In this document: positions 23,578 through 56,871 of the stretch, in pieces | Layout: every line of letters begins with the position of its first letter | Position numbering within the stretch: the first letter of the stretch is position 1 | NCBI GenBank assembly: GCA_007644065.1 | Contig: VJWN01000021.1 | Location: forward strand, 324,271-388,270 | Origin: Margaritispora aquatica | Lineage: Eukaryota > Ascomycota > Leotiomycetes > Helotiales > Discinellaceae | Direction of reading: 5' to 3' | Length of the DNA: 64,000 nucleotides | Position numbers and translations under genes: made by a program | Notes under the pieces: generated by a model | The model's database searches: none | What the model saw: only the letters and a program-made list of their open reading frames with translations | What the model was told of the DNA's origin: nothing

Positions 23578-25362
23578 CTAAAACAGACCAAATTTCAACA
23601 GCTCTTTCAATTCATCGCCGCCTGGTACTACAGCCGCCCCATCCATCAACCCATGCACATAACACTCCCCAATAAACTCAGCAAGGCCATTGAGGCCTTT
23701 AAGCCGAAGCACATACAGCACCTGCCCGCCAGGAAAGGTACACACGACGTCCCCTTTCCTGGCCCCGGCAGGTCCCAATCCCAAATACCCCTTTCTCGAC
23801 GTAAAGTTCCTTCGCTCATGCATGGCCGCCCTTAAACTTTTCTTCATGGTGAAAAACTCATCCAAGTCCATCTGGTTGTCTTTAGTGAGGGCCAGCATTC
23901 GTTCATCCAGTGCAAACCCGCGCTTGACCACGTCTTTCCCGCCTTGTTGCACGTCTGCGACAATGGTGTGGAGGAAGGCTTGCCGAAGCGTTCCTCCGGT
24001 GATGTACGGGAAGGTCTCGCCGCCGGAGATCATCCAACTGCGCGCTCTCCGAATCAAGCCCTCGTCCTCGGTCTCCTCACACACCGTCGTGACCTCGTCT
24101 ATCACATCAACGACCATGCCGTCGACAACGAGCAGGGTCTCGTTGAGCCTGGCCCTCGTCTTCCACGTCCCACAGGCGCGGTAGACTGGATCTCCAGCTG
24201 CCTCGCCATAGGTGAAAGCTTTGGGAAATTCGAACATGTTTGTCACGATCGCCCAGTTCGGCACGAATGTGAGCGCCAACTGCTTCTCGCTGAAGAAATC
24301 GGCTTCAGGTTGCGACCTAAGCACGTGGCCTAAAAAATCCAGCTGGTATTGACCACTCTCGTATTCGAGCAAGTGTTGTACGACGTTCAGATTCACCCGA
24401 TTAAGAGAGATCGTATAATCCGGCTTTAAGATATCCCCGAAAACCCCAGCAGCCAGTCCCAGGACCGCAAAGACTTTATCCCTTGGATCAGTGCTTGACT
24501 GACAACGGAGCCTAGTCAATCCTCCCAACAGTGTCAGCATTGCAGGACCAACACCAGTCCTCTTATAAGGCTCGAACATCTTATATAGACCCCACAATCT
24601 TGTTACATACGCTTCTCCGCCCTTACTCACGATGTGAGTAAGGGGGAACTTCTGAAGAAATCGCCGAATGAAAAGTGTAACCACTAAGCAATCCCAATCC
24701 ATGCTTTTCTCGCCACATATAATCAGAGTGTCTTTCGCCTTGAGCACTTCCTGCACGATCCAAATTCTCCGCCACCACGGTCGCTCCCACAGCTCGAAGA
24801 TCGCAAGCCAAGCTTCATGTTCCACCGAACCTGGCGGACCCTGAAAATCCATGTTGTCAGAGACAAGATGTACGAGGTCTGTCCAGCCCTGAAAATGCGC
24901 GGGGACGGAAGCCAGAAGCAGGTCCTTCCAAGCAAGCATCTTTTCGAATGCAAGATCGCTATTCGCGGCCGCGGGACCAAGCCAGATATACACGCTTTGG
25001 GCGGCGCCGTAGATCTGGCCCATGATCGTGACTTGAGAAGCGCGTTCGGCGAGGTCTTGCTGGTTAATGCAGATTCCGTCGGCCCAGAGGAGAAGACCGG
25101 CGCTTTGAAGTCGAACATGCAGCTGGACGAGGGCGGAATTCAGGTTGGAGGTTATGGGGAGAGTGGTGGTGTTGACGTTTATGTTGTGGTTGAGTGTGGG
25201 ATTTCCCCAAGTATAGGAGAGGGCGATGAAGGGTGGAGCTTGAGAGAGGGGGAAGATTAATAGTTCGGATTTTGGAGTGGAGGAGGGCAGGAATTTGAGG
25301 AGGCGGATGTGGGTTGGTGAGGTGAGAGGGGTGTATTGGTAGTTGAGCTGTGCTTCGGACAT
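23578..25362 (-). CDS. HET-domain (heterokaryon incompatibility-type) protein
   Basis: An intronless 594-aa ORF. The N-terminal HET domain shows its three signature blocks: FIALSYTWG (residues 45-53), LLWADGICINQQDLAERASQ (about 91-110, with the conserved CINQ) and SVYIWLGP (123-130). Further conserved HET-family segments follow: PWWRRIWIVQE, then TDPRDKVFAVLGLA and PDYTISL. The C-terminal part (GECYVHGLMDG) resembles the C-terminus of the other HET gene in this window (53500-55445). HET proteins trigger cell death or growth arrest after non-self recognition in filamentous ascomycetes; the partner and trigger here are unknown. The start is the only ATG before the domain. No N- or C-terminal fusion domain is visible. 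Confidence 0.93.
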   Translation of the reverse strand: MSEAQLNYQYTPLTSPTHIRLLKFLPSSTPKSELLIFPLSQAPPFIALSYTWGNPTLNHNINVNTTTLPITSNLNSALVQLHVRLQSAGLLLWADGICINQQDLAERASQVTIMGQIYGAAQSVYIWLGPAAANSDLAFEKMLAWKDLLLASVPAHFQGWTDLVHLVSDNMDFQGPPGSVEHEAWLAIFELWERPWWRRIWIVQEVLKAKDTLIICGEKSMDWDCLVVTLFIRRFLQKFPLTHIVSKGGEAYVTRLWGLYKMFEPYKRTGVGPAMLTLLGGLTRLRCQSSTDPRDKVFAVLGLAAGVFGDILKPDYTISLNRVNLNVVQHLLEYESGQYQLDFLGHVLRSQPEADFFSEKQLALTFVPNWAIVTNMFEFPKAFTYGEAAGDPVYRACGTWKTRARLNETLLVVDGMVVDVIDEVTTVCEETEDEGLIRRARSWMISGGETFPYITGGTLRQAFLHTIVADVQQGGKDVVKRGFALDERMLALTKDNQMDLDEFFTMKKSLRAAMHERRNFTSRKGYLGLGPAGARKGDVVCTFPGGQVLYVLRLKGLNGLAEFIGECYVHGLMDGAAVVPGGDELKELLKFGLF

Positions 25363-35085: not shown

Positions 35086-36090
35086 CTTATCTTATCGTTT
35101 ATATCTCTTTCTTGGCGATCAATTGAGTGTTCAAAGCTCAAGCGTTTGATGTTGTGATCTGATGGTGAAGGTGGTTCAAAGGGAGATTGATGTTGGTAAG
35201 CTGGGAGATAGAAGAAAAGGACGAAGAGAGCTCTAATGCGAGGGGGAAACGCAATTGGCGGGCGCAATGGATGGGAGCTGGGGAAGGGAGAGAGGCACGT
35301 CACTGATTGGAGTGGCGCATTGAGCTCGAAGAGGTAAGGTGCCGATGCAGGGGCGGTGGAGGAGAACAATAGTGGGTTAGTGATGCACGTGGGTCGGAAC
35401 CACTTCTCCGTAAGCGTAAATTTGGGTACTGTTTTGATATTGCTATCAGACTCTTGAAAATCAACGCATGATTTTGGATTCGAGATATCATTTACTATTC
35501 GATAGGTGAAACTAGAAACAATGCAGCCCATCAAATCTGTATTCACAAAGTAGGCGAGCTTGTGGAAGGGTGGCCGGTTTCTTGTTTGTCTAACGGCCGA
35601 AATTCTTGGACAGGAGCCAGCCCGTCCTGGTAGAGGAATAAACCTGGGTCGGTAATTTCTCAGCTGAGAGATTTTTAGGATGCCTGTTTGCTTTTCTACC
35701 CTCTTCCTTATCAAGAGTAAGTAGAGCGTAAGTAAGATCCTTCTTACAGTGGTTAGACTACACGTGATCATAGGCTTAGTTTTGCTTGTAAAAAAGTGTT
35801 TGTAACAAATATTTGAATGAGGAAATATACCATTTTGTTGATTTCAGGTCGTTCACATTGCTACCCGATTGCCCAGGTGTAACAAGCTCGAGCGACATAA
35901 GCACGACGGAATACCTTACTAAATGGGAGGGGGCAAAACTCGCTTAACTCCTGAAACTCAAAAGAGCCGACCGCCGTCAGCAAACTCACACAAATCAACA
36001 TCAACAACTTCCCCAAAACAACTATCTGAGATTAAAGTCATAACAACCAGCAAATTAACAGCAAAGAATGGCAACAAAAAAAGATTTCTC
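35086..36090. other. Intergenic
   Basis: Bidirectional upstream/downstream DNA with CACGTG at about 35386 and 35761. The long ORF at 34911-35771 (minus) overlaps the acidic-protein exon and intron and is a chance frame. Confidence 0.5.
36076..36082 (-). terminator. Pol III T-run terminator for the tRNA gene
   Basis: On the minus strand seven consecutive T lie 8 bases after the tRNA discriminator base, the normal place for RNA polymerase III termination. Confidence 0.75.
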
Positions 36091-36216
36091 TGACCTACGC
36101 AGGGATCGAACTAATCGCAAATTTAGCATGAATTTCATTGTTAAGGATGGTGATTGAAGCTTACCCTGCAATCTCTTGATTCGTAGTCAAGCGCCTTGCC
36201 ATTGGGCCAGCAGGCC
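36091..36216 (-). tRNA. tRNA-Arg(ACG) interrupted in the T arm by a 54-nt GT-AG insert
   Basis: Read on the minus strand, the acceptor 5' side GGCCTGC pairs fully with the 3' side GTAGGTC (two G-U pairs), and the discriminator is A. The D arm is GCC...GGC with an AATGG loop. The anticodon stem CTTGA/TCAAG is perfect, with loop CTACGAA, so the anticodon is ACG (Arg). T stem GCAGG pairs with CCTGC, and the T loop is TTCGATC. Between G53 and T54 lie 54 extra bases (36164-36111) starting GTAAGC and ending TTAG. The usual tRNA intron position (37/38) is empty. The last G of the insert restores a good B box (GTTCGATCC). A T-run terminator follows. The gene appears transcribable, but its RNA needs the insert removed to fold normally. 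Confidence 0.85.
36111..36164 (-). other. Spliceosomal-intron-like insert in tRNA-Arg
   Basis: 54 nt, within the size range of the mRNA introns in this window (50-100 nt). The 5' end GTAAGC is identical to several mRNA donors here. CTTAAC and TGCTAAAT are branch-site-like at about 29 and 15 nt before the 3' TTAG. It lacks the position and bulge-helix-bulge context of a canonical tRNA intron. Alternative: a neutral insertion in a tRNA pseudogene. Confidence 0.6.
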
Positions 36217-45221: not shown

Positions 45222-48200
45222 ATGGCCAGTGTACAAGATAGCAATTCAATTTCAGCAGAATTAAGGTAAGAATATCCGCTATCCCGCACAAAAATTTGCT
45301 TCAAACAAGCTCATGGATATAGCTCAAAACTTTGGTACGAGGCGAAGCAAAATCTAAGCAAAGAAGAACAAGAATATATCCGCGATTTCCATGGCGATAA
45401 AGGTGATAATCATGGAATCGTGAACGATGTCTTGGAAACAGCCAAGAAGAAGCAAAAAGAGGCAGAAGATAAGCAATGGACGTTCAAGTGTAGAGATGGG
45501 AGGGTCGTTGTAGTGCGAGATATTTTCTCCAAAATAGTCGATTCGGTCACAAAATTCCAAGGAGCCGTGGACTTTTTGGTGTCCATGGATGCTAGCGGAC
45601 ACTCGGCACTTCCTTGGGCTGGAGTGAAGTTCCTCTTATCGGTTCGTCAATCTCTCTATGGTCACTCATGACGAAAACCAATTCTTGTATAGATTGCTCT
45701 TAAGGATTCCCAGAAATGGGGCTCGGTGATCGCGGGCATGGAGTTTGTCACGAGGGAGATTAGTTACTATGGCATCTTCGAAGTCATCTATCTCAGGCAG
45801 AATTTCTCAGCCACGAAACAGCTTTCTGATGCGCTGGTGTGTGCTTATACAAAGATATTACAATTTCTGTCTGGAGCGAGACGCTACTATGAGCAGAATT
45901 CTCTCAGTATGTGTTTGCAATCCTTGTCTCGTGAGATTGAATATTGATAGTGTGTAGAGCGGTTTTTGGGTACCGCATTTCTTCTTGATGAGAATCTTAG
46001 TGACATAGTCAGTGGGATCAAGAGTGAACGAGACGATATCGAACGTCTGAGGGGAATGATTGATGGACAGCGTGAGCACACTCATAATATGGGTTGAGAA
46101 AGATGATGCATCACTAACCGATTCTTGTCACAGACGAGAAAGATATAGGAGATGGCATAGTGACTTTGAGCCAAGGTAAGTAAACGTCCGTTGCTCCATC
46201 TCAATCGTAAGACCTACTCAGTATTCTGTAGACCAAAAGGCAAATCAGGAAAAGTTGGTCAGCTTGTTGAATGGCCTAGCAGCACCTCTGGAGATTATGA
46301 CGATGCAGTTGACAGATGTGAAGGGCAAGGTGGACGAAATGCATTCTGGTATGAACTTCTCGTCATCTTCAATATGTGACAGTCGTGGAGCTAACTGTGA
46401 ACTTCTTTCCTTAGAAATGAAAGCCAGGAATAAGGCAGACGAACTACCGAGGATCTACGCTCATCTTCAGCCAGGAAAAGTAACCAAGTATGAGACCGGC
46501 GTTGAAAACCTGACTCCTGGAACTGGTACCTGGATCCTGCGAAACACATCGTTCACGGAATGGCTTGGAGGCAAGATGCCTGTTCTTTTCGTATCTGGGG
46601 GGCCAGGCACTGGCAAATCATATCTATCTACGAAAGTGATTGATTATCTGCGGAAAACATCTCTTGAAGTGGGCCGACGTCAGAATCGCGTTGGCTACTA
46701 TTACTTCAAGGAGGGCGACAAGAACACTCGCTCGGTACTCACTGCACTATGTGCGATCGTATATCAGATCGCAGTAGAGGATGAGATATACCGTATGCAT
46801 GCCTCACAGATCTGTGACCGATCGCCAAACTTTGCCATAGCCACGTTTCGAACAGTATGGAATGATTTCCTTGTAGCACGATATGGAGCCACTTCCGATA
46901 ACCAGCTCTTCCTTATATTTGATGGTATTGATGAAGCGGAAAGGGAAGAATTCTCAAACTTCCTCAAGTTTGTATCAAGGTCGGTCCTTCAAGACATCAA
47001 AATCCAAATCCTTCTCGTCGGACGCCCGGAAATGAATTCCATCATTAGAGAGAGATTCGCCAAATCATCTTTCGACATTATTGAGGTCTCAAGCAGAGTC
47101 AATATTGATGATATTAGAAAATTCAGCGGAGCAAGATATGACGAGTGCATCAAAGTGCCCAAAAGTCTGAAGGGCTTACGGCACAATGTGATCAAGACAC
47201 TCACCGAAAAAGCGGATGGGATGTTCTTATGGGTAGATCTCGTTTACAAAGAGGAACTTCAATACATTCGCACTCCAATGAAATTGAAGGATGCCTTGGG
47301 AAACCTCCCACAAGGCGGGCTTCCCAACTTGTACGACCGTATCTTCTTAAGAATCGAACATGACAGCGGGGGGCTGGCAAAGCACTTAGCACTGCAGGAG
47401 CTTTTTAGTTGGACAGCATATTTTAAGGAGCCTCTGTCCTTGTTCTACTTGAACGAAATTTTGAATCTTTCAATCGGTTATCAGCACGCCGATGCGGAGG
47501 CTATCCTGGAGACATGTGCCTCACTGTTCACACTTGTCAAGACGGGAGAAGTGCTATTAGCAGAATTAAATCGGTTGGAAACGGAAACACAAGGAGGTAC
47601 TGATGATTCTCACAGAAATGCTGGATATAATGAGGGGCGAGACAACACCGGAGCCGATCCTGAGGAGCAGAATTATGATGACGAGAACGATGACGACGAG
47701 AACTATGACGACGAAAATTATGACGATGAAAATGAAATGGCGGAGATGGCAGAGGCGGATGAGCGACACCGCAACCGCCAGCGAGAGATCTTTGTCCACC
47801 TGCGACATGCTTCTCTCGGCGATTACCTACGGAGAGCAGATTTAAAGCCCACCACTATTCTGCTAGGTGCAAAGCAAGGACAGATTCATGTCGTGGTGAC
47901 GATGTTGCAGATAGTCTGCAAAGGAGCTGATGCATCCCAAGAGCTCTGGCTTTATTTGATGGCGAATTTCCTGGATCAACTTACATCACTGGATTGTAAC
48001 ATCGTTTCAGAGGCAGACACAAAACTTATTATCGGATATCTTCACGAAATATTCACTTCTGAAACCCTTGGGAGGCATATTGCTAAGTTCCATCGAACCT
48101 CCGAAGGCTATCCTCTCCTTGGGGATAGCAGAGGTGACTTCTCCTTCGGACTGAACACAAGTCAGCAGAATGATAATTACCTCGTCATTCGGCAATGGCT

Positions 48201-50268
48201 TCAAAAATCCCAAGACACTGGGCTGACCAAGTCGGATCCTGAGATTTCAAATTGGGCCAGGCAGATCCTAGACGATCCCTTGAAGCTCTTGGTTCCTTTG
48301 GTAAAGACGTGCATCAGCGAATGGCTGGCGTGCAAAGCGGACGGATTTGAGCTGTACTGGAGATTTAGATTCATTTGGAAGCTCATTCTTTCTGTAGGTA
48401 CTCCCCTTGCTTAGAAGATGACTCCTCTAAGAACACTTTGCAAAGGAGTCGAAACTGACAAATACGAATAGACAGATCTCGTTCCACCAGTTCCGCAAGT
48501 GAATGCCATCAACCTGATGGAAGACGCCGCTGATTTCCTTGGTGATGACGCATTCACTTTCATTGCAGGTCTTTCAAAGCAACCAGAAACAATGGAAATG
48601 CATTTTGCGATTGCGAAAACCATTTCTTTTGGGCGCCCCAGTAATGTAGTGGCCATTGCAGAATATCAGAAAGCCATCAAAATGGCCCAGGAGCAAGGAT
48701 CTGACGATGTGTTGAAGGAAATTTATCTACAACAGATCATGGCGTATGTTGATGTTAGATTGCTCAGCGCCAACAAATATGCCCTCGAGGCGATTGAGAA
48801 CTACTTGAAGCTCGATGAGTCGAATGCGAAGGTTCTTGCCTGTCTTGGAGTCGTCCGCATTAGAGACGGTGACGAGAAGGGAGCCATTGAGAGTTTTAAA
48901 AAATCGCTTAAACTGGACCAGACAGACTACGAGGTTGGAATAGCCTTACTGCGAACTCTGTTCAGAATGAAAGACTACGAGGGCATGGTATTGCAGATTG
49001 AATACTATGGCGTTCTGTCGGTGGGGTCCTGGCTGCGTGATAGCTTCAGCCTCGGCGATCACAAAGCAATCATTCATGCCGTATCCACGGTAAATAAGGT
49101 GGATTTGGTGATAAAGTGCTACGAACATGAAATTCAAAATACACAGCTGTCAGACCAGGACCTCAAGGACGTGAAGGACGCCGATCCAGCGAATGCCGTT
49201 CGGCTAACTTTGCGACACCGAACGAGGAGAGTTGCCGTCTCGTCTATGTTCCGCGTATACTTGGGATGGCTTTATCTCGAAATTTTAGGCCAACCTGAAG
49301 AGGCATTTGAGCTCTGGAAAACGGCATTCTTCCAACGCAGCGAATTCTTCAACATGGGTCAACTGAATAGCAGATACAGAACAGATGTCATCCCCGACTT
49401 CTTCGCGCTCTTCTCGCAGCTCATCTACGAAAAGGCCTTGGATCCAGATCCCAATGTAGCTAACCAAATGATTCTCCATCTTGAACATCTCCACCGGCGC
49501 GAGAAGGCTTTCCAGGAGCTGGACAAGTTCCTTGTGGGCAGCGGTCTCAGAAACGTGAATCTGCTTCTGGCCAGGCTCTATCTGAAATACGGGAGGAAAG
49601 ATGAGGCACAGAAGTTACTGAACGACCAGTTTCAAAAAGCTATTGATATCCTTGAAGATGACATCGACTGGAATGATGAATTTGGTTATGGCGCCCTTGC
49701 TGCACTGCTATTTCTTAACGGGCAGTTTGAGAAAGCAAGGGTTGCCTCCTCCCTAAAGCGATTTTTCATTATTGGCTTTAACGCTAAGGTTGAAAATATG
49801 GAACACAACGCTCTAGAAGATGCACAGTCCAAGTCAGATATTGAAGGTGCTGAGCAAAAAGATGAGAAAGGCGAGGATCAGCAACCTCTGCCAAGCAACC
49901 AAGATGACAGCGTCAGCACCACTTCCGATAACTATGATTACGCCACCTGGTCGCAAATATTCTGTGCAGGTGGATACCACTGCGAGAATAATTCAGGGAG
50001 AATCCCGTATAGTGCTACCGTTTACACATGTACAACATGCGCCAACGTCAGCTTTTGCGAGACGTGCTACGACAATCTGCTCAAGGAGACGGGGCAGAGA
50101 AAACTCTTCGTATGCAGCCGCAGTCATGACTTCATCCAAACCCCACCGGAGGGCTTGGAAAAAATTGAGGATCAGAACATCACGATGAATGGGAAGAGCA
50201 TTTCGTTTGCAGATTGGATTAATGAGGTGCGAAAAGAATGGAAAACTGGGCTCTGCTTCAAGTCTTAA
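45222..50268 (+). CDS. STAND/NLR-like receptor: N-terminal STAND domain, NACHT, helical repeats, C-terminal ZZ zinc finger
   Basis: Eight exons: 45222-45265, 45323-45641, 45693-45906, 45958-46071, 46134-46175, 46232-46348, 46415-48393 and 48472-50268. They join in one frame to 1541 aa. Residues 1-230 resemble fungal STAND N-terminal domains (HSALPWAGVKFLL, YTKILQFLSGARRYYEQNSLKRFL). The NACHT has P-loop GGPGTGKS at 345-352, Walker B FLIFDGIDEAE (D453, D456) and ILLVGRPEM. A DENYDD-type acidic tract lies near 700-735. Residues about 990-1380 carry TPR-like helices (AIESFKKSLKLDQTD, LARLYLKYGRKDEAQKLL). A ZZ-type finger at about 1440-1500 includes YTCTTCANVSFCETCY and CSRSHDFI. Fungal NLR-like proteins sense non-self and trigger cell death; the ligand is unknown. 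The 66-nt intron 6 is three-fold and stop-free. Confidence 0.88.
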
Positions 50269-53499: not shown

Positions 53500-55445
53500 C
53501 TAACTCAGTACGAATTGTTCAATTTGTGGGTTCCTTTCCATAAGTTCCCCATCCATAATCCCGTGAACATAACATTGACGGCCTAACTTGAAAATTCCTG
53601 GCTCGACTTCTGACAAAACAAATGGCGCGGCAGAGCCTAAGAATATCACGACCAGGTCGCCAGCTTTGATGTGCTCATCCCCAATGCCAGTATACCTATT
53701 TCTTTCAGTTGCAAATGGCTTACCACGATTACGGTTAAGAACAATTTCCCTCAATGCGTATTTATAGGCTTCTCTGTCCTGGTGCACCGGCTGAGGCCCC
53801 TCGACACTTTCGTGGCTGTGTTCTCGAAGTGCTCGATAGCCAACTCTCATGCGTACAGATGCTCGCTGTGACTGAGGTGGATTAAGTCCATCATCCGAGC
53901 TGACTGGCTTGCCATACGCATCGGACTTTATTTCCATATCCATTGTTGGGATCCTCCAAAGAAAATCAGGTCCTCCACGAGGGTAGACGTTGGAATTTAT
54001 ATCCCGGCAGAATCTCTCAAATCCTTCTAACCATTCGTTGGTAGACTGTTCCGTTTCCAAAGACTCTTCAGTGAGAAAAATGCCAGTTTCCTTGATGACA
54101 TCCACCCTGAACCCAGAAACTTTCAACAAACAGTCTTCTGAGATGCGATCTGGGAATTCCATAAGCGGTTTCGAGTCTTTTGCAGCCGTGAACTGGCCAC
54201 TCCCGAAAGCCATTCCCTCAATGGGACGACCGTGAGCAGCAAAAATCATCGGAACCCTGGATGGCATGCTGGTGCCGTCTTTCATTGGCTGGCAGATTGA
54301 TAGCAGTGATATATCCCCTTTCTTTAATATAGCTACTGCAGTTTGATGCAAGTTAGAACCAAAGATTATGTATAATCTGGCCGAATTCCCAGTTCTTCAT
54401 GATCGCTCGTCATATTTAGCAAAGCAAAAATGTAGTCACGCCAATTTGAAGATTCGTATCCGTACGCTTGGAGGGAGATAGGTGAATAGTTCAGCAAAGA
54501 TGAAAATAGGGTCCTTTTACGGGCATCCACAGAGCTAAAACAGGCGAGATTTAACAGAAGAATGACCCTTGAGTAGTGGCAAGCATAGTGATTAAGAACT
54601 AAGCGACCTTCCTGTGATGAGAACGATGAGATTATGTTCATCGCTGCATTGACGGCCCTCAAACCCTCGTAGAAATACAAATGCCGAATTTCAGACCTCC
54701 CACAGACGAATAACACCCGATCTGCGAAAAACATCTCTTGCAAAATCCAGATACGCTTCCAGTAAGCACGTCTAGCTAAGTTTTGAATCGGCTGCAAGGG
54801 GGCCTCTCCTGCAGCGATAACGTCTGCTATTCTGATGGCAAGCTGATGGAAATCGTCGTCTCCACCATTGCCTTCGAGAAGGGCAATTCCTGCCATTCCT
54901 ACGGCATCCAGAAAAGCTATAGCACTTCCACTGTCATTGGCCTCTGGCCCGAGCCAGGACACGACGTAGGCAGCTTGATGATAGATCTTGTGCATCTGTT
55001 CTACCTGTGTGCTTTTCTCTTCATTGTCGGTCTGGTTGATACAGATTGCATCAATCCAAAATGGCATGGATGGAATCGATGTCAATGTAGGAAACACAGC
55101 CAAGGCATCCCAAAGGTTTTCTGTCACCGAAAATTCGTGACCGTTGACGATGATCAATTTCGGGGCATCGGGGACCAGTCCTAACAGCCCAGGAAACACC
55201 TCTAGCATTATATCTGTGATGTTACCAGCCCATTCCGGCAGAAATGGTTTCCCCCATGTATACGATAAAGCTTTGAATTCAGGGTTACTATCAAGAGAAT
55301 GATGGGTGAGGCGGTAGCAGGGATGTTCGTCCGGCTGGGGATTTTCCTGATGAACGACATGTAGGAGATGAATCTCATGTTTGCTGGGATCCAGAGGGTG
55401 GTAAATAGGGTTTGCAGCTCTCATCATGTGGTTACGCCTCACCAT
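53500..55445 (-). pseudogene. HET-domain gene with a frameshift or unresolved junction near 54360
   Basis: Part 1 (55445 to about 54366) encodes a HET domain: FKALSYTWG, MPFWIDAICINQTDNEEKSTQ, AAYVVSWLGPEA, AYWKRIWILQE, NWRDYIFALLNM and ELGIRPDYT, then stops at TAA. Part 2 (about 54351 to 53500) in another frame begins NLHQTAVAILKKGDISLLSICQ, exactly the family sequence that should follow PDYT. It runs to the typical C-terminus YVHGIMDGELMERNP. No GT-AG intron of plausible size fits between the parts (the only candidate is 24 nt), so a one-base lesion is likeliest. The start may be 55445 (MVRRNH) or 55424 (MRAANPIYHPLD). Both parts are otherwise intact, so the lesion is recent or a sequencing error. 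Confidence 0.7.
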
Positions 55446-56871
55446 AAGATGGATTCGAAGTCCAGGAAGGTGGGTTATTATTCGAAACCTATTCACGGTT
55501 TGGGGCAGATATATATAAGTTCGATCGTTAAAACAAGGTGCAAGTAAGGTGTATAATATTTTCTTGTCATAATATCCCAATGAATTGGTTGATGCAAGCT
55601 TGATGCAGAAGCTAGGAGGATGTGATTTAGATAAGAATACAGTGGATTTCGTGCGAAGTCGTCACGGCTTGGAGTGTGACGTGGTGTGGCTGACGATATG
55701 TGGAAGTATTGCTACTTTCTGCGCCTTCACAATGCGAGTGGTTATGTTTTATCGTGTGAAACGTACAAAAGTCCAAAACGATGAGTCGTGGACTGCTTAC
55801 AAGGCTACCAAGTTCGACAGCATGTGACTAGAATGATAGGAAGCGCTATCTATATGATAATAGCGTGCAAAACTACACATTGAGACAATAATGTGTAGCT
55901 ATGACCGTGCACTTCGCAATCTTCAAGACAGGACAGAGGAAAGTAAGCGAGCTATACCTAACTGGAAACAAAAGTCTCTCAAGTAGAACTATGTTTGCAA
56001 ACAAGTAACAAGATGAAAATAAGGGCAGATATACACACAACCCTATAGATCAATTGATCATTCTGCGTTTATGCCGATAGCTGTTATCAAACCAACGTGA
56101 TGCCACTGGCTCGAGTTCCCATCCAACTTCGTGCTTAGCAATTTCCAGCTTTTGACACATTAACATCCATCCTAAACATGTTACATTCAAGCTAAAACAT
56201 CCTAAAAACAAGGAATTTAGAATTAGCCTATCATAGGATGGCACTCACACTCACACTCACCACCACGACTGTACAACTGTTTGCTATCCGTTGTGAACTA
56301 CTTCACAGGCACTGACCAACAATGGCCAACTGAGTTCGCTGATACATTCATTCCATGGTAACACCATCCTCCAATCTCCATAATTTGACTTCACAACTCA
56401 CTAAGTCCAGAAATGGAGCTCTTCATGAAGTCAATACTCGCTGAAAAACACCTCATCCACGATTACATCGATTTTGTTGACTCTCGTCGTCGAAATTTGT
56501 GCGTCCCAAACAGGTGAGGACTAAGAAATCAAGTTTCCCGAAGATTTCCACTTCTAACATTATGCTCGAATGCGATGTGCAACAAGATATGCGGTCCAAA
56601 CAGCCTTAAAGATCAATGATTAGTGATATATCATATGATCACATTACACCTACCTAGGTGCATTCTTACTCCGCTTGACGACTTGCAGAGACACTGATCA
56701 CTTAATCTGATTGGGAAAAACCTGGAATCAGTGGATTTGCTATTCGACAAGTATAATCATTACATATAGGCATTACTATCAACACCTCAATACAGCGCGC
56801 TTAGTAACAATCATGAAGCTCAACACATTACACGAGCTAACCCCCCAACTTTCCCCATCATTCCGCATTTA
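55446..56871. other. Intergenic
   Basis: Contains a small plus-strand ORF (ATG at 55603 to 55827) with a hydrophobic stretch, CDVVWLTICGSIATFCAFTM, which is unsupported. The rest shows nothing. Confidence 0.45.

Follow-up and report, generated by a model that had tools for sequence, protein, structure and literature searches.

Candidate spliceosomal introns in tRNA genes of the fungus Margaritispora aquatica, including every tRNA-Arg(ACG) gene found

Canonical eukaryotic tRNA introns are cut by the Sen complex, and the spliceosome is, to our knowledge, not thought to process tRNAs. The closest described systems are found in other small RNAs and in other lineages. An mRNA-type intron has been described in U6 of fission yeast (PMC10484740), and another source names U3 and U6 as the sole small structured RNAs that are known to carry an intron often (PMC5832005). 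The introns of fungal U3 snoRNA combine GT-AG ends, an RCTRAY branch site and a YAG acceptor within a structured non-coding RNA, as outlined in that same source. Furthermore, archaea, Cyanidioschyzon merolae and nucleomorphs have tRNA introns whose sites extend over the T arm, the D arm and the anticodon stem and comprise positions 53/54 and 30/31, with several per gene in some cases (PMC4090602).

Here we describe, in the ascomycete Margaritispora aquatica, a tRNA gene whose T arm is interrupted by what is very probably a U2-type spliceosomal intron, one of at least 14 such cases in this genome. As with fungal U6 introns, for example that of fission yeast, a spliceosomal intron would thus lie in a short, structured Pol III transcript, but the hosts are tRNAs, with 14 genes and seven sites. 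The inserts are also similar in their signals to the fungal U3 introns, whereas tRNA is absent from the U3 and U6 list of PMC5832005, and canonical tRNA introns follow another pathway. Canonical 37/38 introns are present in many tRNA genes of this fungus, some of them beside the new introns, but they lie at another site and have neither GT-AG ends nor a branch site. The archaeal, Cyanidioschyzon merolae and nucleomorph introns are attributed to the splicing endonuclease and a bulge-helix-bulge (BHB) motif; in contrast, the inserts described here form no complete BHB and carry spliceosomal signals.

The window, by which we mean the whole stretch of 64,000 nucleotides that was analysed, carries the tRNA-Arg(ACG) gene at 36216..36091 on the minus strand, interrupted between tRNA positions 53 and 54 by 54 nt (GTAAGC...CTAAA...TAG). 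A first-pass annotation of the window had the coordinates right (36091..36216) and left the choice between a spliceosomal intron and an interrupted relic. The features of the locus are the following.

36165..36216, minus strand: 5' exon of tRNA-Arg(ACG), tRNA positions 1-53, with the A box, D arm, ACG anticodon arm and 5' strand of the T stem
36111..36164, minus strand: 54-nt GT-AG insert at 53/54, with donor GTAAGC at 36164..36159 and acceptor TAG at 36113..36111
36120..36128, minus strand: branch-site-like TGCTAAATT, whose putative branch A (36123) stands 12 nt ahead of the exon
36103..36112, minus strand: B box as found in the DNA, AGTTCGATCC, its AG supplied by the insert end (compared with the B-box consensus)
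36091..36110, minus strand: 3' exon of tRNA-Arg(ACG), TTCGATCCCTGCGTAGGTC plus discriminator A, with the T loop from T54 and the 3' strands of the T stem and acceptor stem
36076..36082, minus strand: T7 run, judged from the sequence a likely Pol III terminator

Read 5' to 3' on the minus strand, the insert has the ends GTAAGCTTC...ATGCTAAATTTGCGATTAG, and it can be cut in two ways, GT..AG or GG..TA, that differ by a shift of one base. The first-pass annotation had set the GTAAGC...TAG insert precisely at 53/54, with a T7 run after the gene (36082..36076), and both are confirmed by the sequence; it also proposed that the last G of the insert rebuilds the B box, and the AG of the insert gives a near-consensus B box in the interrupted gene. 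Its branch-like words fared unequally: TGCTAAAT has the spacing expected, its branch A (36123) preceding the acceptor by 12 nt, but CTTAAC is far upstream. Elsewhere in the window, open reading frames with a HET (heterokaryon incompatibility) domain lie at 23581-25362 and 54369-55580, both on the minus strand, and one with an NPHP3_N (NTPase) domain at 46255-48411 on the plus strand (Pfam). HET and NPHP3_N domains are common in filamentous ascomycetes. Protein searches placed the organism in that group too, the best named hits showing 70-77% identity, with several from Helotiales and none from a close relative.

In the raw window, ARAGORN (bacterial settings, without introns) reported no tRNA and Rfam gave no match at the gathering score; ARAGORN with introns allowed likewise reported no tRNA in L001. 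After removal of the 54 nt in silico, a check that the first-pass annotation had itself suggested, ARAGORN called tRNA-Arg(ACG). The spliced 72 nt take up a cloverleaf fold, with a z-score of only -0.78 against shuffles. The chance of such an outcome was gauged with a stringent motif for introns of 45-70 nt (donor GT[AGT][AT]G, a CTRA whose branch A stands 9-13 nt from the end, and a YAG acceptor): the window holds 30 segments of this kind, and removal yielded a tRNA for one of the 30, which is this gene.

The genome (42.36 Mb assembly, 49 contigs) holds further copies. A 151-base query around the window gene returned four more, and the spliced 72-nt query returned the same five loci, each split into two exons that match query positions 1-52 and 52 to 72 or 73. 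The count of tRNA-Arg(ACG) genes that the first-pass annotation had called for therefore stands at five, each interrupted at the same base, and no uninterrupted one was found in the genome DNA search with the spliced sequence. That annotation had also named the case that would speak against a spliced gene, namely intact tRNA-Arg(ACG) genes serving the cell; this case is weakened because all five genes found are interrupted and none intact was found. A diverged intact gene elsewhere in the genome is possible because the tRNA list is incomplete, the Rfam tRNA search having scored 62 of 1722 candidates.

The 72-nt exons are identical in four of the five copies, and the window copy differs from them at 2 of 72 positions (97%). 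Its 5' exon is 98% identical to a query built from the other four copies, which themselves match that query at 100%, and its 3' exon is 95% identical to a query built from the other copies. The five inserts share the start GTAAGCTT and the AG end, and their bodies differ. Aligned pairwise, the insert cores share 53-67% identity, compared with means of 50-58% after shuffling; three of ten pairs exceed the shuffles by at least 2 standard deviations, so that some common ancestry of the inserts is still visible. Exons that are kept while inserts drift form the pattern expected of exons and introns. No copy of the 54-nt sequence, for which the first-pass annotation had proposed to search, was found in the genome; only its signals recur. 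Among the 14 tRNA inserts, that of the window copy alone lacks a full CTRAY, having CTAAA at 12 nt instead, and because of this weakest branch site and the two exon changes it could be the least used copy.

An ACG tRNA with inosine decodes CGT, CGC and CGA. In the one gene counted, that for beta-tubulin, these codons make up 20 of 22 Arg codons. If the five loci are the sole source of tRNA-Arg(ACG), a reading that rests on the DNA search having missed no diverged intact gene, they must be spliced. ARAGORN with introns allowed missed four of these five genes, and more such genes may thus hide in other genomes.

Similar inserts with GT..AG ends are present in 14 of at least 83 nuclear tRNA or tRNA-like loci located, a lower bound that rests partly on reading letter by letter. 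Beyond Arg(ACG) there are nine interrupted genes of seven kinds: two Lys, two Trp, and one each of Ser, Asp, Met, Arg(TCT) and Arg(CCT). The inserts occupy seven sites, which in our own numbering are 53/54, 55/56, 59/60, two D-loop sites, 26/27 and 30/31.

Arg(ACG): five of five interrupted, at 53/54
Lys(CTT): two of six interrupted, at 53/54
Trp: two of three interrupted, at 59/60
Ser(AGA): one of four interrupted, at 55/56
Asp: one of six interrupted, in the D loop at 18/19
Met: one of two interrupted, at 26/27
Arg(TCT): one of two interrupted, in the D loop before G18
Arg(CCT): the sole one seen, interrupted at 30/31

Uninterrupted paralogues permit a direct comparison. For Lys, Trp and Asp, removal from GT to AG restores the uninterrupted paralogue across the junction; one Trp gene (C6) then equals its paralogue throughout, and the other (C9) is changed elsewhere (97% over the first exon). 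The exons of the spliced Ser gene differ from the uninterrupted L149 by a single T-stem pair, T-A to A-T, of which one base lies before the insert and the other after it. Near its junction, the Met gene differs from L036 in two anticodon-stem pairs, with both partners of each pair replaced, as judged by reading. The interrupted Arg(TCT) gene (L071) is 94% identical to L006 over the middle of the tRNA, and the acceptor and T arm differ. A diverged initiator-Met-like tRNA, 81% identical to the query and perhaps a decaying copy, was also observed (L121, G000:C47:2133701-2133775).

Six genes, as read, combine a spliceosomal-type insert with an ordinary anticodon-loop intron: two Lys, Met, Ser, Arg(TCT) and Arg(CCT) (in locus order L055, L071, L095, L108, L117 and L118). 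Separately, ARAGORN reported unusually long apparent canonical introns of 72, 81, 94 and 45 nt in L043, L051, L068 and L152. In the 53/54 genes the inserts end in AG, so the DNA reads AGTTCGA instead of GGTTCGA and the B box is nearly kept. A T run of four or more lies within 70 nt downstream of 13 of the 14 interrupted genes; in the Asp gene the first such run starts about 68 nt downstream. The evidence is weaker for three of the 14, on account of the donor of Arg(CCT), the G-U-rich acceptor stem of L071 and the branch site of the window copy, and Arg(CCT), with its poor donor GTTAGA, and L071 could be decaying.

The inserts carry a consistent set of signals. GTAAG is the start of 11 of the 14 (GTGAG, GTATG and the poor GTTAG in the remaining three), seven begin with GTAAGCT (five Arg, one Lys and one Asp), and all 14 end in YAG. 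A GT..AG cut is possible in each; it is unique in four (both Trp, Ser and Arg(CCT)), and in the other ten, one to three alternative cuts yield the same product. CTRAY stands 9-12 nt before the AG in 13 of 14 inserts, the spacings observed being 10-12 nt, with CTAAC or CTGAT-type branch sites in the sister genes of the window copy, whereas dinucleotide shuffles (n=2,000) placed it there in a mean of 0.31 inserts and a maximum of 3. The mRNA introns available for comparison, those of the beta-tubulin gene of the same genome, begin with GTAAG in three of five, and have CTRAY at 9-12 nt in four of five and at 21 nt in the first; the lengths of the tRNA inserts (49-67 nt) fall within the range of theirs (47, 49, 54, 62 and 126 nt). 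With donor, CTRAY spacing and lengths in agreement, the inserts resemble the mRNA introns of the same fungus, as sampled by this one gene.

The removal procedure was extended to a set of 144 sequences (228,423 bases), selected mostly for holding tRNAs. It contained 197 intron-motif segments, and 15 of these, when removed, left a tRNA that spans the junction: all 14 inserts and, trivially, a segment in an intact Trp gene (L033). Every one of the 14 spliced sequences was thus called a junction-spanning tRNA by ARAGORN, although it named Met as Ala and Ser as Asn, since each of these holds a second intron. Without removal it still reports a tRNA in four of the 14 (L002, L055, L084 and L115), with other boundaries or names.

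Genome-wide scans gave a less complete inventory. AG-type B-box words (AG before TTC) number 134 in the genome against 218 in the control, and this lack of excess implies that most such words are not tRNAs. Among the matches listed (100 of 134), 38 new sites were read, one of which is a tRNA (Lys, L095); three known Arg sites were listed as well. GGTTCRANYCC words are at control level, with 301 against 331 in a backwards control, and the nuclear tRNA gene set may be small for a fungus of 42 Mb. Eight fungal-type tRNA queries gave no match in the genome, a result of little weight because at least His and Gly genes exist there. Among the Rfam tRNA matches listed, 21 of 61 lie on contig G000:C38, several of them repeated about 33.7 kb apart, and this contig probably represents the mitochondrial genome, with one stretch repeated in the assembly.

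Other Pol III genes were inspected as well. Two U6 genes were found (47 scored of 2801 candidates), and both carry mRNA-type introns in the 5' domain, at two different sites.

G000:C48:1672708-1672842: U6 gene (L106) with an mRNA-type intron in the 5' domain
G000:C23:2147951-2148077: U6 gene (L107) with an mRNA-type intron in the 5' domain

The inserts lie after GGTC in one gene and after GGTCAATTTG in the other, measure 53 and 50 nt, and have GTAAGT, CTGAC or CTAAC, and TAG, with CTRAY at 10-12 nt. Once the exons are joined, both genes give an identical U6 sequence at the junction. U6 introns are known in fungi (PMC10484740) and set a precedent for a Pol III transcript that reaches the spliceosome. 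In 5S rRNA, another Pol III product, inserts are absent, as all 43 matches run end to end; these 5S genes are scattered over many contigs.

How else could such inserts arise or be removed? Non-canonical introns cut by the tRNA splicing endonuclease through a BHB, as in archaea, Cyanidioschyzon and nucleomorphs, deserve consideration, since archaeal introns are placed at 53/54, 30/31 and 59/60, among other positions, in PMC4090602. For the same reason the 53/54 position is not unique as such. The mRNA-type reading of the first-pass annotation is supported by the genome. The canonical anticodon-loop introns of many genes here imply that the endonuclease route is presumably present, and three of the 14 inserts (both Trp and Ser) show 3 of the 4 central BHB pairs. 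However, when pairs were counted at fixed geometry with shifts of one base, a complete 4-bp central helix appeared in none of the 14, against 4% of shuffles in this test without a positive control, and archaeal-kind removal is unlikely for that reason. None of the 14 inserts lies at 37/38, the position of tRNA endonuclease introns. Endonuclease-cut introns can do without GT-AG ends, a branch site and a set spacing of branch and acceptor, all of which the inserts have; we consider this explanation very improbable. Equally improbable in our judgement is that dead tRNA copies were hit by insertions while intact genes serve the cell, although eukaryotic tRNA genes with D- or T-arm insertions have been supposed to be pseudogenes (PMC4090602) and uninterrupted paralogues are present for Lys, Trp, Met, Ser, Asp and Arg(TCT). 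For Arg(ACG) it is unlikely because no intact copy was found in the genome DNA search, and the Arg exons are conserved while the insert bodies have diverged; for Ser and Met it is unlikely because pairing is kept, stems being preserved through paired changes. The downstream T runs in 13 of 14 genes also speak against it, and shared donors, branch sites and acceptors are not expected of random insertions.

An origin from a mobile, introner-like intron family or another repeat landing in tRNA genes could be read from the similar insert lengths in several genes and from the shared GTAAGCT start, but in a genome search at E up to 1 each of the 16 insert sequences (14 tRNA and two U6) recovered nothing but itself. 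Near-identical copies being absent for all 16, such a family is excluded at the search sensitivity used, and we give it next to no weight; it bears in any case on the origin of the inserts and not on their mode of removal. An assembly or sequencing artefact is just as hard to credit, given fourteen loci on eleven contigs, a different insert at each and precise junctions. Group I and group II introns were also set aside: the inserts measure just 49-67 nt and have folding energies of 0 to -9.8 kcal/mol, and Rfam at the gathering score gave no match in the window. Between intron and interrupted relic, the genome favours the intron as far as sequence decides, with five of five Arg(ACG) genes and nine other genes interrupted.

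With spliceosomal introns as the preferred reading, the pathway may run as follows. Pol III would transcribe the interrupted gene through its A and B boxes, which the intron leaves largely intact. The spliceosome would recognise GTAAGC, the CTAAA branch site and TAG, motifs from which the release of the 54 nt as a lariat is predicted, and the joined exons are computed to adopt a normal tRNA-Arg fold. The spliced tRNA-Arg would then be trimmed and decode CGU, CGC and CGA. For the six two-intron genes, a single precursor would be handled by both the spliceosome and the tRNA endonuclease. A spliceosome that acts on an uncapped, folded Pol III transcript would be unusual, with U6 as the precedent.

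More broadly, we think it likely that spliceosomal introns have widely invaded the Pol III genes of this lineage (seven tRNA sites together with the two U6 genes found), and that the indispensable tRNA-Arg(ACG) is made only by way of the spliceosome. No published report of spliceosomal introns in tRNA genes was found among the matches listed from the open-licence literature, and as far as we have seen, ordinary spliceosomal introns had no known cases in this class of genes.

Spliceosomal introns in tRNAs would break a division of labour, as canonical tRNA introns belong to another pathway. If the reading is true, the translation of CGU, CGC and CGA codons depends directly on splicing, splicing relies on U6 genes whose own transcripts must be spliced, and some tRNA precursors are processed by the spliceosome and the tRNA endonuclease together. 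The supply of tRNA would thereby be tied to splicing. This fungus would also provide numerous cases of intron gain or loss whose sites are known exactly, with uninterrupted paralogues alongside, and a natural test of the route by which uncapped Pol III transcripts come to the spliceosome.
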